DNA of 64,000 bases from contig JAQGDQ010000118.1 in the NCBI GenBank assembly GCA_030141605.1, positions 62,001 through 126,000 of the forward strand. Reading direction: 5' to 3'. Below the pieces are notes generated by a model, which saw only the letters and a program-made list of their open reading frames with translations, had not been told where the DNA came from and searched no databases. This DNA is from Tubiluchus corallicola (taxonomy: Eukaryota; Priapulida; Priapulimorpha; Priapulimorphida; Tubiluchidae). The position numbers and the translations under genes are program-made. Within the stretch, counting starts at the first letter, position 1, and each line of letters starts with the position of its first letter. Positions 2,498 to 49,000 of this stretch are shown here, piece after piece.

Positions 2498-5400
2498 CTT
2501 TGTTTCGGATTTGCTTCTTCCGTCGCCACTTCTGCCTTACAAAATGTTCTCTACATTGACACGGCATGTTCATTTACAGCAGAGCGGATTTTTCAGATTA
2601 TGACAGCTCACTCACCGAACACTCTAAGCAAGGTTAAGTATACTTGCAAATGTAAATACAGTTTTCTGGTTATTGCTTCTTATCAAAATAGGTGCGCCAT
2701 AGTTTACTTGTAAATATAGGATATTTAAATGAGAATTTAGTTGTGCATACACACCGATGTTACAAACCAGGTGTATGGTACTGAGCACAATGAAGGAGTA
2801 CTTATCGATATTTTTGCGTAATGAGGTTGAAAAGTTTTTTACTATTTCAGGATGAGCTGACTGCAGCTTTAAATAGAATAAGAGTTGTACAAGTTTTTGG
2901 ACTAGATGAATTATTTCAGATTTTAAAGCAAGTCCACGAATCACATGAGGTATTGCAAAACTCTTATCTGATATTTTGTGTTTAGATGCACTATGTACGT
3001 TGTAATAAAGTTGCAATGATTTTCACAATAGAAATAGTAAGAAAAACTATCCAAAACTTGTTCGCATAAGATGCTGTATCAGTATCGAAAACTACGTATC
3101 TTGCAGAGCATTTAGCACCTTCCGTTATGCCAGTGAAACCACTCACTTGAAGGTTTGTTCAAATAGCTCAGTCACCTCAGCCACCATGCTTAACTGTAAT
3201 TGACGTTTAACTGAAATAGGCCTTTTCGCAGTTCCAGCTTTTGATGATGATCACAAAAAGGTAAAGGTCAAAGTGCCTCGCAGCCCAAGCTACTATAATA
3301 CTTATAGTTTTAACAGCTAGGTAGAACCTTACCTAGTTCATTTTTTCTTTTTCCCAAGCAAACTTCTGCTAGTAAATCACTCTATGCACAGACTAATGCA
3401 TAATTAAGTTAGTAAAGTCCACATAAAACAACTGAAGTAACTGAACTGATACGGCAGATGGCTTTGCTTTACACACGTCTCGTGAAGGTTGTAGTTAAGA
3501 CGCATTGCTGTGGTACACTTAACCTTCGACCTGCAGCAACTGCGTGTGCGTACAACATAATTGTAAAAAGCCTTATTATTTTAATGTTTGAGTTTAAATT
3601 AAAAATACGTAATACCTAGGATGTGTATTTAAGTACATCTAATGTACAAATGAATTGGAATTTGACCAGTCCCTGACAGTAACTATAATACTTACAAAAG
3701 TTTATAATTGTTAAATTGTTATTATAGCCATCTAGTGTTACAGGAAGATGAATTTTTCGGATGTGTGAAAGCAGTGATAATAGATTCCATAACTGCTGTC
3801 GTGGCTCCCCTACTGGGTGGAAAACAAGTACAAGGTACGTTTTCACCACTACCATTTAGTCAGTTTATGAATGTTCTATTTGCTCTTCATCAAGTTGTTA
3901 AATATTATGAATTTCATTAAGGACATATCCAGCTAAAAATAAATCCAAGACACGTGATGGACAGTCATTCGGAATAATATGAATGTGCCATTTGAATATG
4001 TAAAAAACTTGCAACTTACCATTCTAGAACATTTGACAAGTTTGGCATGTCGAACAGGCATGCTGCAACAAAGTCTTGTAGCCCCAGATTGCTCGTCCAC
4101 AGAAAGTAAGTCGGATATTTGAAACATGAGACCATGCATTGCTCATTGATGGCCGAGTCTACAATTGCCAAAATCACCGCACTATGTATTATCATAAATA
4201 CATTTCGCTCCCAGTAAGGAAAAAATATATCAGTGTTTTAAAACTGCCTATTTCAACTCTACTTTTGTCAATAATACATCTGAAACAAACATACATGTAT
4301 ATCAATTATCCATTTTGAACACTAACAATCCAATAAGTTACTAGTCTTGCTATCTTAATTTTCTATAAGTACTACAACAAATAGCTTCAGATGGCTGGAT
4401 TTCAAAATAACTTCATTTTTTAATCTTTTTTTATTTTAAGGTTAATTATGGGTATTCGAGGTTTAGGACGGGATTGGGGTTCGGGTCAGGTTCAGTGGCT
4501 CGGGATCGGGGTATGGGATAGTAAGTGAGTTCCAAGTCGTGCCGGTTACATTATTATGACAGAATTTTAGTAATTTATTTTATGGTATGACAACAGGTGA
4601 AATATTTTTGAGCATTTTTAATCCATGGCATTCCATTTTCCGTTAGTAGCTGAGTGGTTATAGTGCAAACTTGGCTGTGGTAGTTAAGCACTGTCAAGGC
4701 TGGTTAGTAAACGGAGGGAAAATTACTTCAGGGCACAGCCTCATTTGTCATATTGTCTCCAACTACTATCTTGTTGTATGTGTATATGTATCCAAATTAA
4801 CTAAAACACCATTGGCCTTTTTACGTTCTTACCTCACGGGATTTCTTGGGCAGTGAAATAGGCTTTGGCTTTGCTACACAACACACCATTAGTAATGGGA
4901 CTTGCTATTGTGTGTGAAATACTAACCTGCCTTGTGCTGATCTGAGTATAAAACCTTGCAGGGAATCATTGAATTATCACTTTGTCTGTCAATTCTTGAA
5001 ACATACAGTGCTACCACTTTTCTACCATCATAAAAAGTCATATAATTCTTAAGAGTCTGAAGACCATTCATCATTCATTATTGTGTTCCAAACTTCCCAC
5101 CCTAACAATATTATTAAGTATAGTTTGTTATTATCTGTAGGTGTCTGTATTGCAGACATAGAGGTTAGAAATTAACTTGAATATTTTTTACTTATGATAT
5201 ATTTTAGCGACATTAACACAACTTGAAGTAAACTTACTGCAAGTTCTTTAAATAATCTAGAATAACTTTCTTTTGTTTGTCAGTAAAAATATTCTTTAAG
5301 ACGTACTGCTATTTACTATTTATTACAAACCAAATTAGCAAATATTTCAATGCAACTGTAGTGAAAAAACAGATTTTTTGTCAAATGTTGCCAAAACTTG

Positions 5401-7655
5401 AGACCCTACAAACATAAAGGATCCTAGTTTGCAGCCTATACTAGCTTATAGAATAATCTGGCCCTGATGAAATTAATTTCATTATGAAATTATCAGCAGT
5501 CAGTTACCACTTGTACCACCAAAGCAAGAATGTGAAATTTTCTTACTTGACCTAAAAGTCTTTTGTCAATGCAAGACTCGACTTTTAACGTGGTGACGAC
5601 TGACGACTCTATTTAATGACGACAATAAGTAAAAACAAGGGATTGACAACTGGACATATGAATATGCATGCAATTATTTAATAAATATGGTATTGTTTGA
5701 ATACTTTATTGTTAATTTTTGTGATTTTCAGGGCACGGTAAAATGATGCAGTTGTCACGGGAACTAAAAACCTTGTGTATGGAGCATTCCATTGCCGTTC
5801 TGGTGCGTTTGTATTGCGTTTCAGCGAAAATTTCAAACTAATCAGAACATAAGCTCAAATTATGCAAAGTTTTTAACATAACAAATTCTCCATTATTGTA
5901 TTCCCATAGCAACCTTTAATGTTAACAAATCATCATTAAATGAAGCCATATTTCTGTCGAAAATGGTAAATGATTAAGTGATAATGAATAAAGTTTATTT
6001 TTTAAGAGATTACTTTCTTAAGAGATACTTGATTGTACAGAGTAGCACTGTACAATAAATCTCATAATTACAATTAATACCTGAAATATGAAACATGTAA
6101 ACATAAAGTGCAGCATATCTTACTAGCAGCCAAGTTAATTTACACCAAGCTTTGCCAATTAGTAAATGGAGAAGTATAAAAACATTAATGACATCAGACA
6201 ATACCACTCATGGAGTTTTTTCAGTCACCAGACGTAGAGTTTCCATGTCTAGAGCAGTGCTGAGACATGGTTGGCAGTAGTACAGCCACAGAAATTATTT
6301 ATAGTCCTAACTTAAATCAAGGTTTGTATTTTATTTGCTTCAGGTTACTAATACAGTGGTGCCATCTGACATGTCTCGGCCATCAATGGGCAATGCATGG
6401 TCTCATGTTCCAAATACTCGACTTTTGCTTTCTGTGGATGAACAATCTGCGCCTACAAGACTTAGTTTCAGCTCACCTATTCGACATGCCAAACTTGTCA
6501 AATGTTCTAGAATGGTAAGTTGCAAGTTTTTTACATATTGAAATTTGCACACTCGTATTATTCTGATTGACTTTCCATCACGTATCTTGGATTTATTTTT
6601 AGCTAGAAATGTTCTTAGTTGGTTTGTTAATGAACTCAACGTGGTATCAATATTTAGCAGCTTGTTATGTACAACAAGCCATGATGTTCCAAATTGTCAC
6701 TCATAACACTTGTGATTGGACTGCAAGAAATGCTAATGTTTTGCAATATTCTGTTTTATATCCCTTTTCAATGTCATATTCCAAGATACAAAAGTTCAGA
6801 TAGTATGATTTTTTACATTTTAGTACGGTTTAATGCATGAAATGTACTATACGTAAGTAACTAAGTTTATTAAAACAAACACATTACAGTTAAAAGAACT
6901 GAATTACTGTGTTTATACAAATGGTAAAAAGAATAAAATTAAATTAAAAGGCCTCAATATTTTGTTAAACAATATAAGTTTTACACGCATCTTTAATGAA
7001 AATACAAGTTATTTGTCAACCATCGAGAAATCTAACTAAATTTTCCAAAACGTTTCGCTTGATTTTCTGTGATCTTTGTCATTCATTAATTTAATTATAT
7101 GTTGTAAAAGCAACGTATGATATCTATCAGTTCTACATTTTTCTTCAACATATTTTTCTTTAGTGACGAAAAACGTACTACTGATAGATATTATACATCG
7201 TCTTTACGATATTTAATTAGATTATCGAATGGCAAAAATCACAGTAAATCAAACGAAACATTCTGGAAAATTTAGTTAGATTTAGTGCAAGTTTCCAGTT
7301 TATCTACATTGATTGTGATAATTGTGCATGTGTTGCTAGAATTTATAATTTATCTGCAGAATCTGTCAGTTGGCAAGTAAGGTCGCTTTTGAGGTAGTGG
7401 AAACTATTAGAAATGAAAATTGTAAAAGTTTTATGCTGCATCCATTTCTGCTTCATGCTTTTATCTTGTTTGTAAAACAGCTTGAAGGATTAGATTCAAT
7501 ACATTATGCACCTATTCCGTAATAAATAATGAAATGCAATGCTTTTCTTCATAAATTCTATTTGATGAAAAGTTCTCAAATATTTTCAGGCTGTGCCAAA
7601 GTCTGTCGTCTTTCAAATCACTGACAGTGGAATACAGGAGGCAGCATCTGCATAA
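2498..7655 (+). CDS. RAD51D: DNA repair protein RAD51D (C-terminal part, six exons)
   Basis: RAD51 paralogue that acts in the BCDX2 complex to promote homologous recombination (known for the family). Exons 2498-2632, 2851-2949, 3744-3834, 5732-5802, 6344-6514 and 7590-7655 have GT/AG borders and matching phases, giving 210 residues. Visible landmarks are SALQNVLYIDT (the beta strand after Walker A), the Walker B strand VKAVIIDSITAVVAPLLGGK, MMQLSRELKTL, and AWSHVPNTRLLL near the end; these match animal RAD51D closely. The human protein has 328 residues, so roughly the first 115, including Walker A, are missing. A dead LINE fills the sequence just upstream and I found no earlier exon in the window. 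Stop is TAA at 7653-7655. The introns hold repeats, an inverted exon copy and a large palindrome. Confidence 0.9.
3217..3575. repeat. 360-bp interspersed repeat, copy 1 (MITE-like)
   Basis: This stretch in a RAD51D intron is clearly related to 11615-11979 in the same orientation. Shared blocks include GTTTTAACAGCTAG, CCTTACCTAGTTCAT, AACAACTGAAGT and AGTTAAGACGCATTGCTGTGG. The ends resemble each other as inverted repeats (TAGGCCTTTT at the left, AAAAAGCCTTA at the right). No coding potential is visible. Length, ends and copy number fit a non-autonomous DNA transposon; a TA target site is possible but not proven. Confidence 0.7.
3931..4157 (-). pseudogene. Inverted duplicate of a RAD51D exon and its flanks
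   Basis: Read on the minus strand, this segment copies 6375-6604 of the same gene: most of the exon 6344-6514, its donor GTAAGTTGC, and about 90 bp of the following intron. Identity is high (for example CGACATGCCAAACTTGTCAA is unchanged). The copy has substitutions and a 2-base deletion where the true exon has CTTTTGCTTTC, so the exon frame is broken. It lies in the intron between exons 3744-3834 and 5732-5802, antisense to the gene, so it cannot be spliced in as a coding exon. The transcript could instead fold the copy onto the real exon. Confidence 0.9.
4440..4525 (+). other. G-rich cluster in RAD51D intron
   Basis: In an otherwise AT-rich intron the plus strand carries a dense run of G tracts: GGGATTGGGGTTCGGG, then, after a gap, GGGATCGGGGTATGGG. 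At least five runs of three or more G lie within about 60 bp. This could form a G-quadruplex on the sense strand and hence in the RAD51D pre-mRNA. No gene is visible in it. Confidence 0.5.
4641..4740 (+). repeat. Possible tRNA-derived SINE head
   Basis: The stretch TAGCTGAGTGGTTATAGTGC (about 4646-4665) resembles the A box and D arm of a tRNA (consensus TAGCTCAGTGGTTAGAGC). I do not see a convincing B box downstream, so this is at best a decayed tRNA-derived SINE. The remainder of the intron to 5731 shows no other feature I can name. Confidence 0.28.
7028..7283. repeat. 256-bp palindrome (long imperfect inverted repeat)
   Basis: The left arm begins AAATCTAACTAAATTTTCC and the right arm ends GGAAAATTTAGTTAGATTT. 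Matching continues inward, with CGTTTCGCTTGATTT against AAATCAAACGAAAC and GATATCTATCAG against CTGATAGATATTA. Arms are roughly 100-110 bp with a short centre near 7140-7175. It lies in the last intron of RAD51D (6515-7589). It may be a foldback MITE; RNA from it would form a long hairpin. Confidence 0.8.
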
Positions 7656-9111: not shown

Positions 9112-12100
9112 CTATGTTGAATCTCTTGTCAACCAAGGTTTTTCCATTGTTTGTTGCTTGTGATAAGCAGTCATTACACGTTTAGGAGGAACTAGAGATT
9201 TTGCTAATCCCGGCCGCTTCTTTTGCTTTTTCATTGCATTAAATTCAATGTCATTGTCATTGCCTGTGCAAAGAGGATTTCCAGCAGAATTTGCTATCTG
9301 TGCTTGATGGATATTTGCTCCATATTTACAGTTATTGTGTGTCATATTCAGTTCTTTATCTGGTTGTGCAGATCCTACACTATTAAGATTGTGAGAAAAT
9401 TTACAAGCCTTTCCAAATCGACACTTGCCTTTTTTGAACTTTAGACAAATTTGTTTTTCTTTAGAATGCAACTCGTTTTCCGATAATTTCACGTGTTTTT
9501 CTAAAATGGCTTGTTTGGCTTCTTCTGCCGCTTTATACGGATTCACAAACACAGATGATAATGGTACATGTAGTTTAGTCTCAGTCACAACATCATCAAA
9601 ACTTGGCAAAAGGGTCTTTGGTGCTTGTTCCAATGGCTAAAAAATAAAGTGTTATTTGGTTACAAGGCTAATTATATCCTGTAATTATCATCGCTGTTGA
9701 TGTTGTTGCTGCTGCTACTAGTCCTACTACTACTACTACTGCTGCTACTACTTTTACTATTATTATTATTATTATTATTACAGTAGTCGCCGCTTAATAG
9801 ACTCACGGTTAATAGACTCAATCGCTTAATTGACTCAAAAACGCCTAGAACGAGCAGCTTCTATTCAAATATACATAAAAACTATCAGTAACTGACTCAA
9901 ATAACTCCACTTAATTGACTCACTTTACTTTGCTTTTGTGCACTGTAATATAGGTAGAACAATCATCTTAAGTACCGTTTTAGTTGTAAACAGGTACGTT
10001 TATCATGCGCCAATACGCTAGCGTAGTGGTTTTACTTTGAATCTGTTACCCGCTAGCCCACTGTTGCCCAAAGAATTTCTGGAAGCTAAACATTTAATCA
10101 CTTGCCTAGCGGTTTCCTTTTGATGCTCTCATTGCAAATCATGCTTTCAGGCTTAATGAGTTAACAGTCAAAGATGCAGGTACTATAATCAGTTGATATT
10201 CTTCGGGACTGACAAGACTAAACATCGTACAGCAAATAAGAGCAATGTAAGTGAGCAGACGATTCGGAACTGTTTTAGTCACGCACAACAACAGATTTTC
10301 AACGTTTTTATAATTACGAGAACTTTGTGAGCCAACTTCTTCGCGAGAAAATGAAGCAGGCAACCTTGAAGGAGTTTTGTAATTTTTGCAAATAAACAGA
10401 CTTAGAAAAGTCTATAATTTAGAAAAGTATACTTTTTAATTGTATATAAATATTCTTATTAAATATACTTATTGCTAATTCACTTACATAAACTAATATT
10501 TTAAAATATTTTTTCTAATTTTTAACTGCACAAAGGAATTTAGGGATTAGTTTGTTTCTAAAATTCATTAAAAACCGTTGCAGTGCAGCTGATGGCTCAT
10601 ACTTCTACTTGTAATACTACACCCATTGGTTAATAGGTACAGTCGGTTAATTGGGTCAAAACACGCCGGTCCCAAAATAAGTCTATTAAGCAGTGCCTAC
10701 TGTATTATTATTATTAGCATTAGCATTTATTTTGTACTCATGCTACAGCACCATACAATACAACAAAGTGAGCGAATACGATACAGTAAGTGCCAAACTG
10801 GTTAGTCTTACAAAGTTAACTAGCAAAATTTTTTAATGCTTACCTTGCTTGAGTTATTCTTGTCTTTATCACCGTTGTCAGCAACATCAGTTAGGATGTC
10901 GTCAGTATTAGCAGGAAAAAAGTACGTGGATCGTTCTATAGTTGAAGTAACTACATGGCATGTTTCATTTACACTGCAAAATAGTAAAGATCGCCATTTG
11001 GCTGAATCTCAGAATGCAAATATTACAACCATATTAGGCAAGGAAAAATTGTGAAGTATTATTTTTAGGCATATTTTTCAAAAAAGCACGAAATGACAGG
11101 ATTTTTTATTTGGAGAAATGGTGGGAGATGGAATTTATTTTCTGTGTTTCTTGATAAAAACACGCTACAGAAATTTTTCTTGATTAAACCTACACTACAA
11201 AAATTTTTGTTGATTAAACTAACAGTGTCACAACCACAGGTACTTAGGAAACAAAGCAACATTTCCCAAAAACACTCGAAGTAGCCAGGATACAACTATT
11301 ATAGCAAATGAGATTTATTAGGAAGTTATGTTTTATTTTTTAGTAGGAAAATGAGGCACATGCGACAGTAAAAAACAAGTACTGCAATGGACATTCCATA
11401 TGTGCAAATACTTCATAAAAACATATGAATGAACTCACAGAGTTATATTGTACAATTGTCACCTTGCTAATCAGATGAATGAAATATTAACAGTTCCCAA
11501 ATACAACAGAATTTTGTAAATGAATGTTTCAGATCAAAAATTTAATTTTATTACTTCCATTGTTTATTGTCTCATAACAAGCTATGTTTAAAATTCTTTG
11601 AACTATTATTACAGTAGGCTTCTTGACGGTTCCAGCGACTGATGATGATCATGTCAAAGGTTAAGTCTACCAGACAATGTATTTGCATACACTTGACAAT
11701 GCCTCGTATACCATGCTACTGTAATAGTTTTAACAGCTAGCTATAACCTTACCTAGTTCATCTTTTCTTGTTCCCAAGCAAGATCCTGCTACATACATAC
11801 TATTGCATAATTAAGTAAAGACCATGTAAAACAACTGAAGTTACTGAACTGATGGGGCAGACGGTTTTGTTTTACACACATGTCACGTGATGGTTGTAGT
11901 TAAGACGCATTGCTGTGGCACACTTAACCTTTGACCAACAGCAACTGCGCGTGTGCATAATAAAACTGTAAAAGGCTTACTAAAGGACATATCCCCAACT
12001 GCTAGGCAAGGACTCGAGATTTGAATAGTAAAATCTTGCTCTAAGACTTGAACAATGACAACTCGATCTTCGTAACCCATAAGTACCATAACCTTATTTT

Positions 12101-41569: not shown

Positions 41570-42165
41570 AACGAGCAGTAACCATTTACGATTAACATTC
41601 CATCGATTTAACCTTGTTTTTCAAACTACTACACAAACAATAATATAAGAAATTAATGTTCTTACACTGCCTTATAAATTCTGACGATAGGACAATGGCA
41701 AGAACGGTTTTAATGGATAAAAAAACAAAAAAAGCTAAAAATGTTATTATAAAGAGATTGAAATCATAATGTTAACACCGCACATCATTTCTGATCTGAA
41801 AAATTGAAAAAAGAAAATATTCCAATGGCATTCTTCATTTCTGCCCATCTTTTTCTCTTCTCTCTTTCTTTCAATCTTTCCAACTGCATGGCACTATTCC
41901 TTATTACAGAATGTGGGCAGAACTATCAGATTTTTTGAAAACATTTTCAAACATGAATTAATAACATGTCAGACTATACTAAATAATACTGAGCCTTGTT
42001 ACTAAGTCGTATTAAAATTATGAACTAAAATTAAAAAAGTAGTTTTGTTTCAAGATTGATGGTATGAACTATGTAAAAACTTGTCATTCACACTTTGAAT
42101 AAAATGTTAATATACTTCTTAGTATTATTGTTCTCTGTATGCAGATAGTAATTATTAGTGATATC

Positions 42166-43094: not shown

Positions 43095-46000
43095 ATGTCT
43101 TTGCAAAACGTGAATTTCTCCTTTAAGATAGGCGTAGGCGTTTTTGCAAGGAAAACGTCGTGCCCTAGGTTCTATTCAGTGCAAGGACAGGGAGCTAAAG
43201 AAAGACGTAAAACAATTTCCGGCTTTTACAATCACACAGCAGTCGATATCGCAGCTTCAAAGGTACTTTTGCAGTGCTGATAATAATGTTGTTGTATTTG
43301 CTTTTTTAATTTAATGAACTTTGACTGTACAGGTTTTGAACATGGACATTGAACTCTTTCATTTATTCATTTAACTTCAATTATTCGCCAGAATGACGAA
43401 GGAATTTCATCTTTTATAAAAATAGCTCCATTTCAAATTCAGTGTGCAAATTGTGTAGTTACTGCAATGTGAATATTTTCAGTCATATCTTTCCTTTGTT
43501 GTATAATTTCATCTGTGTTCCTGAATTTACTTTGAAAATTTATTTAAAATAATGGTCATGCTTTGATGTACAATAATGTATCTCTTTAAATTTGGCTTTT
43601 AATTTTTTCTTTTAGCCATCTGTTCGACTGACACCAGCTACCATGCTGTATGCTGGGAAAATTCCAGATGGAAGTCATCTTTTGGTAAGATACCTATTTT
43701 GTACAAACTAAATTGCATACATAGAGAGAGAGTACTTTGTAATTTTGCATAGTATTAATGTAAAATTTTCATTATGTGGTTTGGTGTATTCGCACTGTTT
43801 GTTGCAAACTATCCTATTTTTGCACCATCAGACCGTGCGACATGTTTAAGACTTGGTTTTACCATTTTTTCTATAATCGTGTTTGACGACAGGATACTGT
43901 GAACCACTGAAGAATTTTTGCAAGTATTACACAATTCATTGATGTAACTTTATATCAATTCTACTCATATTGTAACGGCCTCATAATTGCTGTTGCAATT
44001 AATCAATTTTATCGAAAGTAAATCAACTGTGGCATTCAACTAGCGCTCACTCGTAAATTAACGTGATCAATGATTGCTAATACAGTAAGAGTGAGATTTT
44101 GCACACTTCACCACCAATTTCTGTATTTAATTAACCATAGCACAGAGATCCTAAAGTGTCAATTAGAGATAAAGCAAAACATACAAAGTGAAATAACAGC
44201 CAAGAGCTTAATGTTCTAAAATTTCATAGAAATGCAACACTACTAATTATTAGGATCGATTGTCAGTTAACAGTCGTCAATTGCATTTGAAGATTGAAGA
44301 TTGATCATAGAAATGAGACTGATTCCCAACACTGTTAGTGGGGCAGCTAAGGTTATATACTAAAAGAACTGTGCATTTATTGACTAAAGCATGAAATGTT
44401 TTCCAGAGTTTTAATAGACCATAAAGTTCATTTTTAAATGTGGCGGCATTTGAGATTTGACCTCTGGGACTAGGTAAAGGGCAAAGACTTTCAGGCTGTC
44501 AAATTATTATTTTTTCTTATTTTTTCAGAGACATGACGGAAATTCTCAATGTTAGTGTTTTATGTTAACTATACACTGTGTCCAAACAAAGTCAAGTTAA
44601 TGTTTATGAGTTTTGGTTTATATTTTTCTTTTGGAAAAAATGCTGGTTTATGAGAAAAATCTGATTTTAGGATTCTCTGTTATACAAAAATTAGTATGAA
44701 TTTGTAGAAACAGGCAAAGTGTAAATGTTATGTGACAGCATTTATATAGCTTCTTTGTTGATTGTGTATGCAGAGAAGTGCCCAGTACTTGCACAAAGAG
44801 CTTCCGGTTAGAATTGCGCATCGTATTGCTGGATTTCGTGGTCTGCCTTTCATCGTTGGATGCAATCCCACAATTCTTCATGTACACGAGATGTATATTC
44901 GAGCATTTCAGTTGTTATCAGAATTTCCCATGGTATGATTGTTAGTAATATGTTGGTTTGTAGAATGTATTATGAATGTAGTTATCAAGTAAAATGAGAA
45001 CAATGTTGATCTGAACCTCACATTCTTCTCTCTTCGAGTGGCACTTATCTTTGTTAGGATACTTATCTAAATATGAGCACTGTATTTCTGTAGCACTTGC
45101 TATATTTACCACTTTATGCTAAACTTTGTGGGTAATTAGGGGTTTTAAAATAGATTACAGACTTCGAAATAGAAGAAAAATATACCAATATGTTGAAACG
45201 ACTTTTGGACGATCATCGAGATGTTGTAACGATGCTGGCTGAAGGTTTTCGAGAATGCAGAAAACATATTCAGGTATTACCTAAACCCTTTCCTTTAGAC
45301 GAAATGCTTAGTTCTTGGGGTCTTGTCTAGTTGTTTTAGGCAAGCTTGTCATCACTACTGCAGGTACCTTCCTATTGATTGCTAACACTGTGAGAAAATA
45401 GACTGATAGGTTCTGTATTTGCAAATAATTATGTATATCAATAACTTGACCTGTCAACTTTTTGAAGAAAAATGCATCGAATAAGTTAAATGCTCCGAAT
45501 GAGTTAGGTATTTTCACGGCTCACTATTTACTAATATTTTATTCAAATTGTGTATGTCAGTTTTTACCCGAGTTTCGTAGTATCTATATTGACAGCTTAA
45601 CAACTTTAGTATTATCATAATTAATTAATGATTTAATGAAGTTTTGTAACAAGGCTTAAAATGATTTTGAATATTGTGGCACTGCTAATTCAAATTTGAA
45701 ACTGTTTGAACAAAATGTGATAATTGAGCCCACATTCTGTAATAGGAAATCAGAGACGTAGCAAGGTGGAGATGACAGGGGGCAAGGGTGAGAGGCCGCA
45801 GAATTCTTCTAGAGGATGAGGGGTCACAAGTCAAACTCGGGGTGATTCTTAGAAAAAAAATTTTTATCTTTATCCCATCATTTCAAAAAAGGAAAGTCGG
45901 GTTCTGAGATGTGACTTCACCCATGAAACATATAATCAAAACATTAAAAGAGTAGGATGCCAGAAGTTTTTTTGCCCCTGGGTACCACAAGCACTTGCTA

Positions 46001-49000
46001 TGCCACTGTAAGAAATGGTACCATTTGGGAATGTTGAAAAAACGAGAAGAGAAAAAGATGGAGAAAATGAAGCACACCTTTGGAATATTTTTGTTTCCAA
46101 TCTTTCAAATCAGAAATGATCTGTGGGCATGTACATTATGTTAATATCAGGTATTTATGTCTATGTTTCTTCAGGATGAGACAATGGTGCGGCAATTTCT
46201 GAACCGTACATTAACATCTCGTCTAGGCATTCGCATGCTGGCTCAGCATCACTTGAATCTTCATGAAGATATGGTAAATGTTAAAATGTCTTTTTATAAC
46301 ATTAAAATTTTTTGTATTTTTTAAATTTTTTTATTGCACTGTTTAGTGTAATTATTCTATGTGAGACTAATTTTGAAACCAACTTCAACGTGTACTCAAA
46401 ATTAGTTTGTGTTAGACTAATTATCCATGCAGACTAATTTCATAGAATTTTTTCATTCCAAATGAGGATTATTTTCAACGAAATTTAAATAACAGGAACA
46501 GTGTTTTCCTTCTCAACCAGATTCTTCTTCAGCAGATTAAAACTCAGAGCTAGAAGTTTCTTTATCAACCATCTTGCCACTGCACTCTTTTTGTAATTTG
46601 CTATGATTTTCTGCAACACGGGGGCACAGTTGCCGTCTACATCCAGTGCCACGTCAGTGTGTATCATTGCCTTCCTGGCAAAAGTTATTTGTCTTGCTAA
46701 ACATTTGGTGCAGTAACAGAGTCAGCTGTTAGATTGCAAAATCCTTTGTTTTATGTGTGTTCAAGACTTGTGCTGCACAGACCAGCTTATGCTATTTTTG
46801 AAATACAGACTAATTAAATACCGGAAAAAGGTACAAGTGCACTTTAAAATTAGTCTGGTGACACTATTTTTCCACACAGACTAATTACAAAAAACAGTGT
46901 AATTGCTTCTACTTGACTGCATCAGTAACAAAACATCTTATTAGAAATATTTATAGAACATACTATCATGGTAAATCACAGATCTTGCTACACACTATTG
47001 CACACACATAACTGTGTTGCATTGATGGTAATTCAAGTTGCATGATTTTCATCTGTTTGTTGTATCATTACAGTATGTTGCAAATGTGTTTAATTTTTAA
47101 ATTTAATTTTCTGTAGACAAACTATGTTGGAATCATCTGTGTAAACATGCAGCTGAAAAAAGTGATTGAAAACTGGGCTGACTTTGCAGCGTAAGTTCGT
47201 ATATTTATGCAATTTTCTTGAAAAATAATGTTTTCCCTTTCAATATTTTATAGGGTGCTTTGAGCAATGGGTTAAGATTGGGTCTGGTTTTCCTTTAAGT
47301 ATTAGCTTAGAAAATTAGTTTAACAACTTGTTAATATAGCTAATCATGACATCACCGTCGTCATAGTTTTCTAATGGCAGGAGTCTTCCTTGTAGGTCTT
47401 GTACATGTTCCTGAAAGCAATAAATGCTTTACTGAGGTAATGCTTTGCTAGGCTACCCTTATGACATTATTTATTAATGTATTATCCCTTTTTACAAGTT
47501 TTGTTTTTTAACTTTTATTATATCATTCTGTAAGCCATAACTGGCAACTTCTGTTAACATTTTTTTCTTTTTTTATTGAAAAATGTAATAAATTGTGGAT
47601 GTAAAACAATGACTTCTATGCTTGATAAGAATCTTTTTATATGTGATGGTGATGCCTCGACAAATTGAACTCAATTAAGGTATTTAATGTTGTAACATGT
47701 TCTTGACAGTTTTTGTCTAAAACTGGGCCAATTTAGTGATTTGTAAATGCCTTTATACAAATGTAAGTACTTACTATATGTATACTATATAAACTTAATG
47801 TAACTTTTTCAAGAAATCATACAAACTAAAATAAAACACAGTATTTCTAAATGGCCATCTTAGTAACCCAACAACACTGGGTCATTTATAATCGAATTAC
47901 TGAACCTTGATCCTGCTTTGAGCTAGTACATTACTTTATTTAACAATGAAGGGATATTTAACACCAAAAAAGTCTAGCTTTTAAATTTGCATTCAGAGAT
48001 AGACTGTATGATCTGTGCACTTTGGTTAGTAAAGATAATATCTGACAGGAAACACCTGTTCTCTTCTCACTACTTAGTTGATGTTTTGCTATGTGCCTTT
48101 GCTGTACTATAAGATTTGCACTGAATTTTATAATCCTTCAAGTAACAAGACACGATTGAATAAATAATTATCTCCACGAACATTTCTAATTGTATCATGT
48201 GATAAAATTCAACTGACAATACTAGGTAGTAAATCAGTGACAGTATTTTTTGTAGCACCAGTTCATATTCTGTGTTTTAAATGATCATCGCTCATGAATT
48301 ATAAATTATTTTTCCAGCAAAGTGTGTGAGCATCGTTATGGCAGGATGCCACCTGTTCACATAAACGGTCATCTGAATGCCCAGTTTCCTTACATTCCTC
48401 AGCCTCTTGATTACATCCTACCAGAGTTGCTGAAGAATGCAATGAGGTGAATAAACATTTACTGGTTAAATTAGTTTCTTAATGTTATTATTGATTTGTG
48501 TTCGTTTACTTACGTATACTCACCGATACAGCTTTTGCAGTATATAGTATAGCTTCAAAGTTTTTTGCCTTATTTTTAGAGCTACTGTAGAGAAGAATGC
48601 TGACTCTAACACTCTGCCACCTGTCACAGTTACTATTGCTGTAAATGATGTTGACTTTGTGATAAGGTAAGAAACATAGATATGTCTGTTATAATGGCTT
48701 TTAGTGTATACTCATTAACTTTTACATGACCTTTACACCTTTCTTTGGACTGCTGGTGAGTTCAGTGCGATTATTTTTTCATTGTTAGCTTTTTCTTAAA
48801 GGCCTATATAACCCTAACGGACATTGAGTTTTTTTAATGTATTACTATGATTACACAAAGAATTCATAGTTATTATTAAACAAAAGAAACTTTTAAATTA
48901 AATAACCTTCCTTTTTCTGGCGAATTTCGAATGCGTGCATTGCCGTAAAGATCGCCATGTTTCGCGTCTTTCGGTTAGTAGGTTCGGTCGGTTAATTGGG

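Follow-up and report, generated by a model that had tools for sequence, protein, structure and literature searches.

The window, a stretch of 64,000 nt from Tubiluchus corallicola, contains a RAD51D gene, for which a model covering the exons from about 2500 onward was made by hand from splice signals and reading frame; residues 1 to ~120 are encoded by exons upstream of the modelled part. The hand-spliced conceptual protein, whose query version was a few residues too long just before 3744, where a different acceptor had first been assumed, matches the Pfam Rad51 family and has human RAD51D as its best solved match (E = 3.8e-31, versus 2e-8 for RAD51B, the next one). The first-pass annotation had placed an antisense copy of one RAD51D exon inside an upstream intron of the same gene; this is borne out by alignment and by the RAD51D protein match, and the coordinates it had given for two exons (5732-5802 and 6344-6514) are supported as well. 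The features of the locus are:

About 2500-2632: RAD51D coding exon, from splice signals and frame
About 2851-2949: RAD51D coding exon, from splice signals and frame
3744-3834, + strand: RAD51D coding exon upstream of the inverted copy, EDEFFGCVKAVIIDSITAVVAPLLGGKQVQ; hand model, acceptor picked by reading frame
3918-4157, - strand: arm 1, inverted partial copy of exon 6344-6514 and its downstream intron, inside intron 3835-5731
4019/4020: antisense copy of the donor within arm 1
5176-5467, + strand: copy of a dispersed repeat, about 290 bp, within the loop and unrelated to the inverted copy (1072 candidate places, of which 40 were scored, most of them at 78-84% identity)
5732-5802, + strand: RAD51D coding exon of 71 nt in the loop between the arms; frameshift if skipped
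6344-6514, + strand: RAD51D coding exon of 171 nt, phase 0-0, VTNTVVPSDMSRPSMGNAWSHVPNTRLLLS..., donor ATG/GTAAGT
6375-6617, + strand: arm 2, the source, comprising the final 140 nt of the 171-nt exon, the donor and the first 103 nt of the following intron
6480-6539, + strand: longest identical stretch in the alignment of copy and source, 60 nt, pairing with 3995-4054 and spanning the donor at 6514/6515
7590-7655, + strand: last RAD51D coding exon, containing the stop codon

Other elements lie in or beside the gene. A reverse-transcriptase-like ORF fragment, recognised by eye on the - strand (1926-2471), ends ~30 nt before a RAD51D exon. The last RAD51D intron holds a near-palindrome (7028-7283; two 120-nt arms, 83% complementary and 16 nt apart), which resembles a fold-back MITE or a further local inverted duplication. 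A direct repeat of about 280 bp (3299-3575 and 11717-11979, 81%), one copy of which is inside a RAD51D intron, probably represents a repeat family.

When the reverse complement of 3918-4157 was aligned to 6375-6617, as the first-pass annotation had proposed, 214 of the 243 columns were identical (88.1%) and 29 differed, and the match obtained by BLAST within the window had an E value of 4.6e-77. The limits previously assigned to the pair (3931-4157 and 6375-6604) were right in position and stopped some 13 nt too early on one side. The copy lies ~2.2 kb upstream of its source, in the same pre-mRNA, and has neither the acceptor nor the first 31 nt of the exon. The 2-base deletion described earlier is real; it falls opposite 6423-6424 and breaks the frame, and a second gap, of 1 nt, lies opposite 6544 in the intron part. 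A tandem or mutually exclusive coding exon is therefore ruled out, the copy being antisense, frameshifted and devoid of acceptor and exon start, in agreement with the previous view that it offers no coding alternative.

The match is far beyond chance: searching the whole 343.5-Mb assembly with the copy returned the copy and its source and nothing elsewhere, although such a search may overlook weak matches. To the left of the copy, intron 3835-3917 is unique in the assembly; to the right, 4158-5731 is unique except for the dispersed repeat, which is a kilobase from the copy. The ends of the copy fall arbitrarily across exon and intron, no similarity was seen to extend past either of them, and the target-site duplication sought there was not found in convincing form (the longest direct repeat has 5 nt, with one of its copies inside the arm). 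A transposable element or a fragment captured by one is ruled out by the copy number of two, the unique flanks and the want of a convincing target-site duplication. The copy is a single local inverted duplication, not a mobile element: two nearby inverted copies on one contig rather than a dispersed family. Young gene duplicates in animals are often inverted or partial (PMC4546093, PMC3449122). No support was found for a false inverted join in the assembly. The alignment of the arms has indels and 29 differing columns among 243, the flanks are unique and continuous, and the assembly has no further locus for this sequence, so that an artefact has a next to negligible probability. Since the arms are 88% identical and carry indels, a fold-back read is likewise disfavoured, and the 12% divergence rules out an assembly palindrome.

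We also estimated how common such pairs are in this genome by comparing each of twenty 10-kb pieces of the same assembly, together with the window, with itself (264 kb in total); the pieces came from contigs met in an earlier repeat search and are not strictly random. Among the candidate inverted pairs for which the genome was searched, three besides the RAD51D pair were single-copy, one of which includes low-complexity sequence:

L017, 4183-4386 and 5526-5728: 204 bp, 91%, 1.1 kb apart
L019, 4-361 and 1253-1611: 358 bp, 76%
Window, 41897-42112 and 45529-45748, with outer pieces 41784-41881 and 46028-46120: 72-83%, 3.4-4.1 kb apart

A further candidate pair, in L024, proved to be a satellite repeat and was dropped. 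The rate is thus 3 in 264 kb, or roughly one in every 90 kb; so small a count leaves a wide margin, and thousands of local inverted pairs would be expected in 343 Mb. An arrangement that takes in an exon donor may be rarer than this class. The RAD51D inverted copy is a real but ordinary duplication in an unusual position.

The direction of change between the two arms could be read from human RAD51D, which polarises three differences (G at 6389, P at 6410 and T at 6417). All three changes occurred in the copy, which has S, S and I where the exon keeps G, P and T. As the frame is also broken there, the copy is the derived, non-coding partner. Differences in the exon part of the alignment affect all three codon positions, and divergence is about equal in the exon part (17 of 140 columns) and the intron part (12 of 103). 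Because exon 6344-6514 has stayed intact while the copy decays at conserved codons, the exon must still be in use, and RAD51D evidently tolerates the copy. This intactness argues against strong interference by the copy with the exon.

The 60-nt identical stretch reaches from 35 nt before the donor to 25 nt after it. Its length is somewhat greater than expected by chance when alignment columns are shuffled (p = 0.005) and less exceptional (~0.02) in a simulation that matches the mean number of differences but lets neither the donor nor codon positions 1 and 2 change in the source arm; the stretch was chosen post hoc, so these values are suggestive at most. It counts against a purely neutral reading, in that gene conversion or a constraint on pairing could have preserved it; given the weaker p value under source constraint and the post hoc choice, neither gene conversion nor selection is claimed. 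It is conceivable, and we consider it highly unlikely, that the copy has been retained, at least near the donor, and works as an inbuilt antisense control on the level of productive RAD51D splicing by covering the donor and offering a duplex to ADAR or Dicer, with the 60-bp helix under selection or gene conversion.

Both arms are transcribed in one pre-mRNA, so the copy can pair with its source. As RNA, the two arms are predicted to form a duplex of -341.5 kcal/mol, compared with about -49 for each arm alone, and in the minimum free energy (MFE) structure of the 2.9-kb pre-mRNA segment 3835-6700, 221 of the 240 copy bases are paired with the source arm. The earlier suggestion that copy and exon might fold into a long duplex is therefore supported as regards capacity. 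Every base of 6510-6523 is paired with the other arm, so that the whole donor lies within the helix, buried in a perfect stretch of 60 bp inside the 240-bp predicted duplex. Shuffling the copy raises the folding energy of the segment by about 225 kcal/mol. A stable intramolecular duplex is thus predicted, as for a dsRNA-forming inverted repeat; the folding is an equilibrium prediction that leaves aside proteins and co-transcriptional order. An ADAR carrying both dsRNA-binding motifs and an adenosine-deaminase domain is encoded in the genome, as is a Dicer dimerisation domain, and enzymes acting on such duplexes are therefore likely to be present. An ADAR-like gene with dsRNA-binding motifs and a deaminase domain occupies L027 529-2535 as one uninterrupted ORF of 668 aa. 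Inverted repeats in transcripts can lower expression (PMC5080714).

The most direct prediction from the anatomy is that pairing would cover the donor of exon 6344-6514, so that either 57 residues would be lost in frame or the intron would be retained. If this happened in a substantial share of transcripts, functional RAD51D would be lowered, and the copy would act as a splicing control. The predicted burial of the donor and the energy cost of losing the pairing speak for such control, as do the general observation that long-range duplexes can hide or loop out splice sites (PMC7404189) and the exon skipping promoted by reverse complementary matches in C. elegans zip-2 (PMC8330042). However, the MFE calculation takes no account of co-transcriptional timing or proteins, and the loop measures ~2.2 kb. 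Whether folding across such distances competes with splicing was reportedly doubted early on, by Eperon in 1988. Moreover, the exon has kept its frame and conserved residues, so it must mostly be included, and control on that scale seems unlikely to us.

Pairing of the arms might instead join the ends of exon 5732-5802, which would then be back-spliced into a circle or looped out. This exon is flanked by the inverted arms and has its own acceptor and donor in the ~2.2-kb loop, and back-splicing is usually aided by the pairing of flanking sequences (PMC8938519). The second arm, though, consists of the next exon and beyond, not of flanking intron; 71 nt is short for a circle, skipping of the exon breaks the frame, and a circle of two exons would require the buried donor. 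A circle or loop-out is possible in principle and less favoured than covering of the donor of exon 6344-6514, and we regard it as extremely improbable. A similarly slight chance attaches to a role as a small-RNA source, in which Dicer would cut the intronic hairpin into siRNAs directed at RAD51D mRNA, as at a newborn hpRNA locus. The perfect helix, the encoded Dicer domain and the existence of Drosophila hpRNA loci with arms resembling their targets (PMC10317233) would fit such a source, whereas the 2.2-kb loop, the decay of the copy and the fact that no independent transcription unit was seen all stand against it.

Taken together, the copy is quite probably a neutral, non-coding and decaying inverted duplication with at most a slight effect on RNA; both its neutrality and the mechanism of its origin are what we infer from the sequence. 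A RAD51D segment made up of the end of an exon, its donor and the start of the following intron would have been duplicated once, in inverted orientation, into the intron ~2.2 kb upstream, with a template switch or a repair event as the probable mechanism, and would then have decayed free of coding constraint. Any consequence would most likely be slight: unspliced RNA might undergo a little A-to-I editing, and the 171-nt exon, its donor being covered, might perhaps be skipped at a low level. On the predicted structure, editing at low levels, in-frame loss of this exon from an occasional transcript, and the production of small RNAs are each plausible.

Among known systems, intronic inverted Alu/SINE pairs form dsRNA, serve as ADAR substrates and have effects on circRNA formation and splicing. 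The RAD51D pair resembles them in having two inverted arms of similar length (240 bp) about 2 kb apart in one pre-mRNA; unlike them, its arms are not a transposable element, and one of the two takes in a coding exon and the donor of that exon. It is also like local inverted partial gene duplications in being partial, inverted, near its source, non-coding and decaying (PMC4546093, PMC3449122), and differs in that the copy lies within an intron of its own source gene, with both arms in one transcript. With hpRNA loci and inverted-duplication small-RNA genes it shares an inverted copy of coding sequence and a hairpin complementary to the gene itself; in contrast to hpRNA loci, it has a long loop, and no separate transcript was seen. 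Finally, complementary stretches on either side of an exon recall the zip-2 matches, which promote both skipping and back-splicing (PMC8330042), but those are both intronic, whereas the downstream stretch in RAD51D includes an exon and its donor. In the open-access literature, represented mostly by titles and abstracts, no account was found of an exon copied in inverted orientation into an intron of its own gene, which counts as weak evidence.

If the duplex acts, the locus would test under natural conditions whether a constitutive donor of a live gene can be hidden by a 240-bp helix that closes a ~2.2-kb loop; the gene serves in DNA repair, and the readout would be clear and in frame. If the duplex is inert, it would be a useful negative, showing that an exon can tolerate an extended antisense match to itself within one pre-mRNA. 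Judging by the survey, local inverted duplications are numerous in this genome and could be studied as a set.
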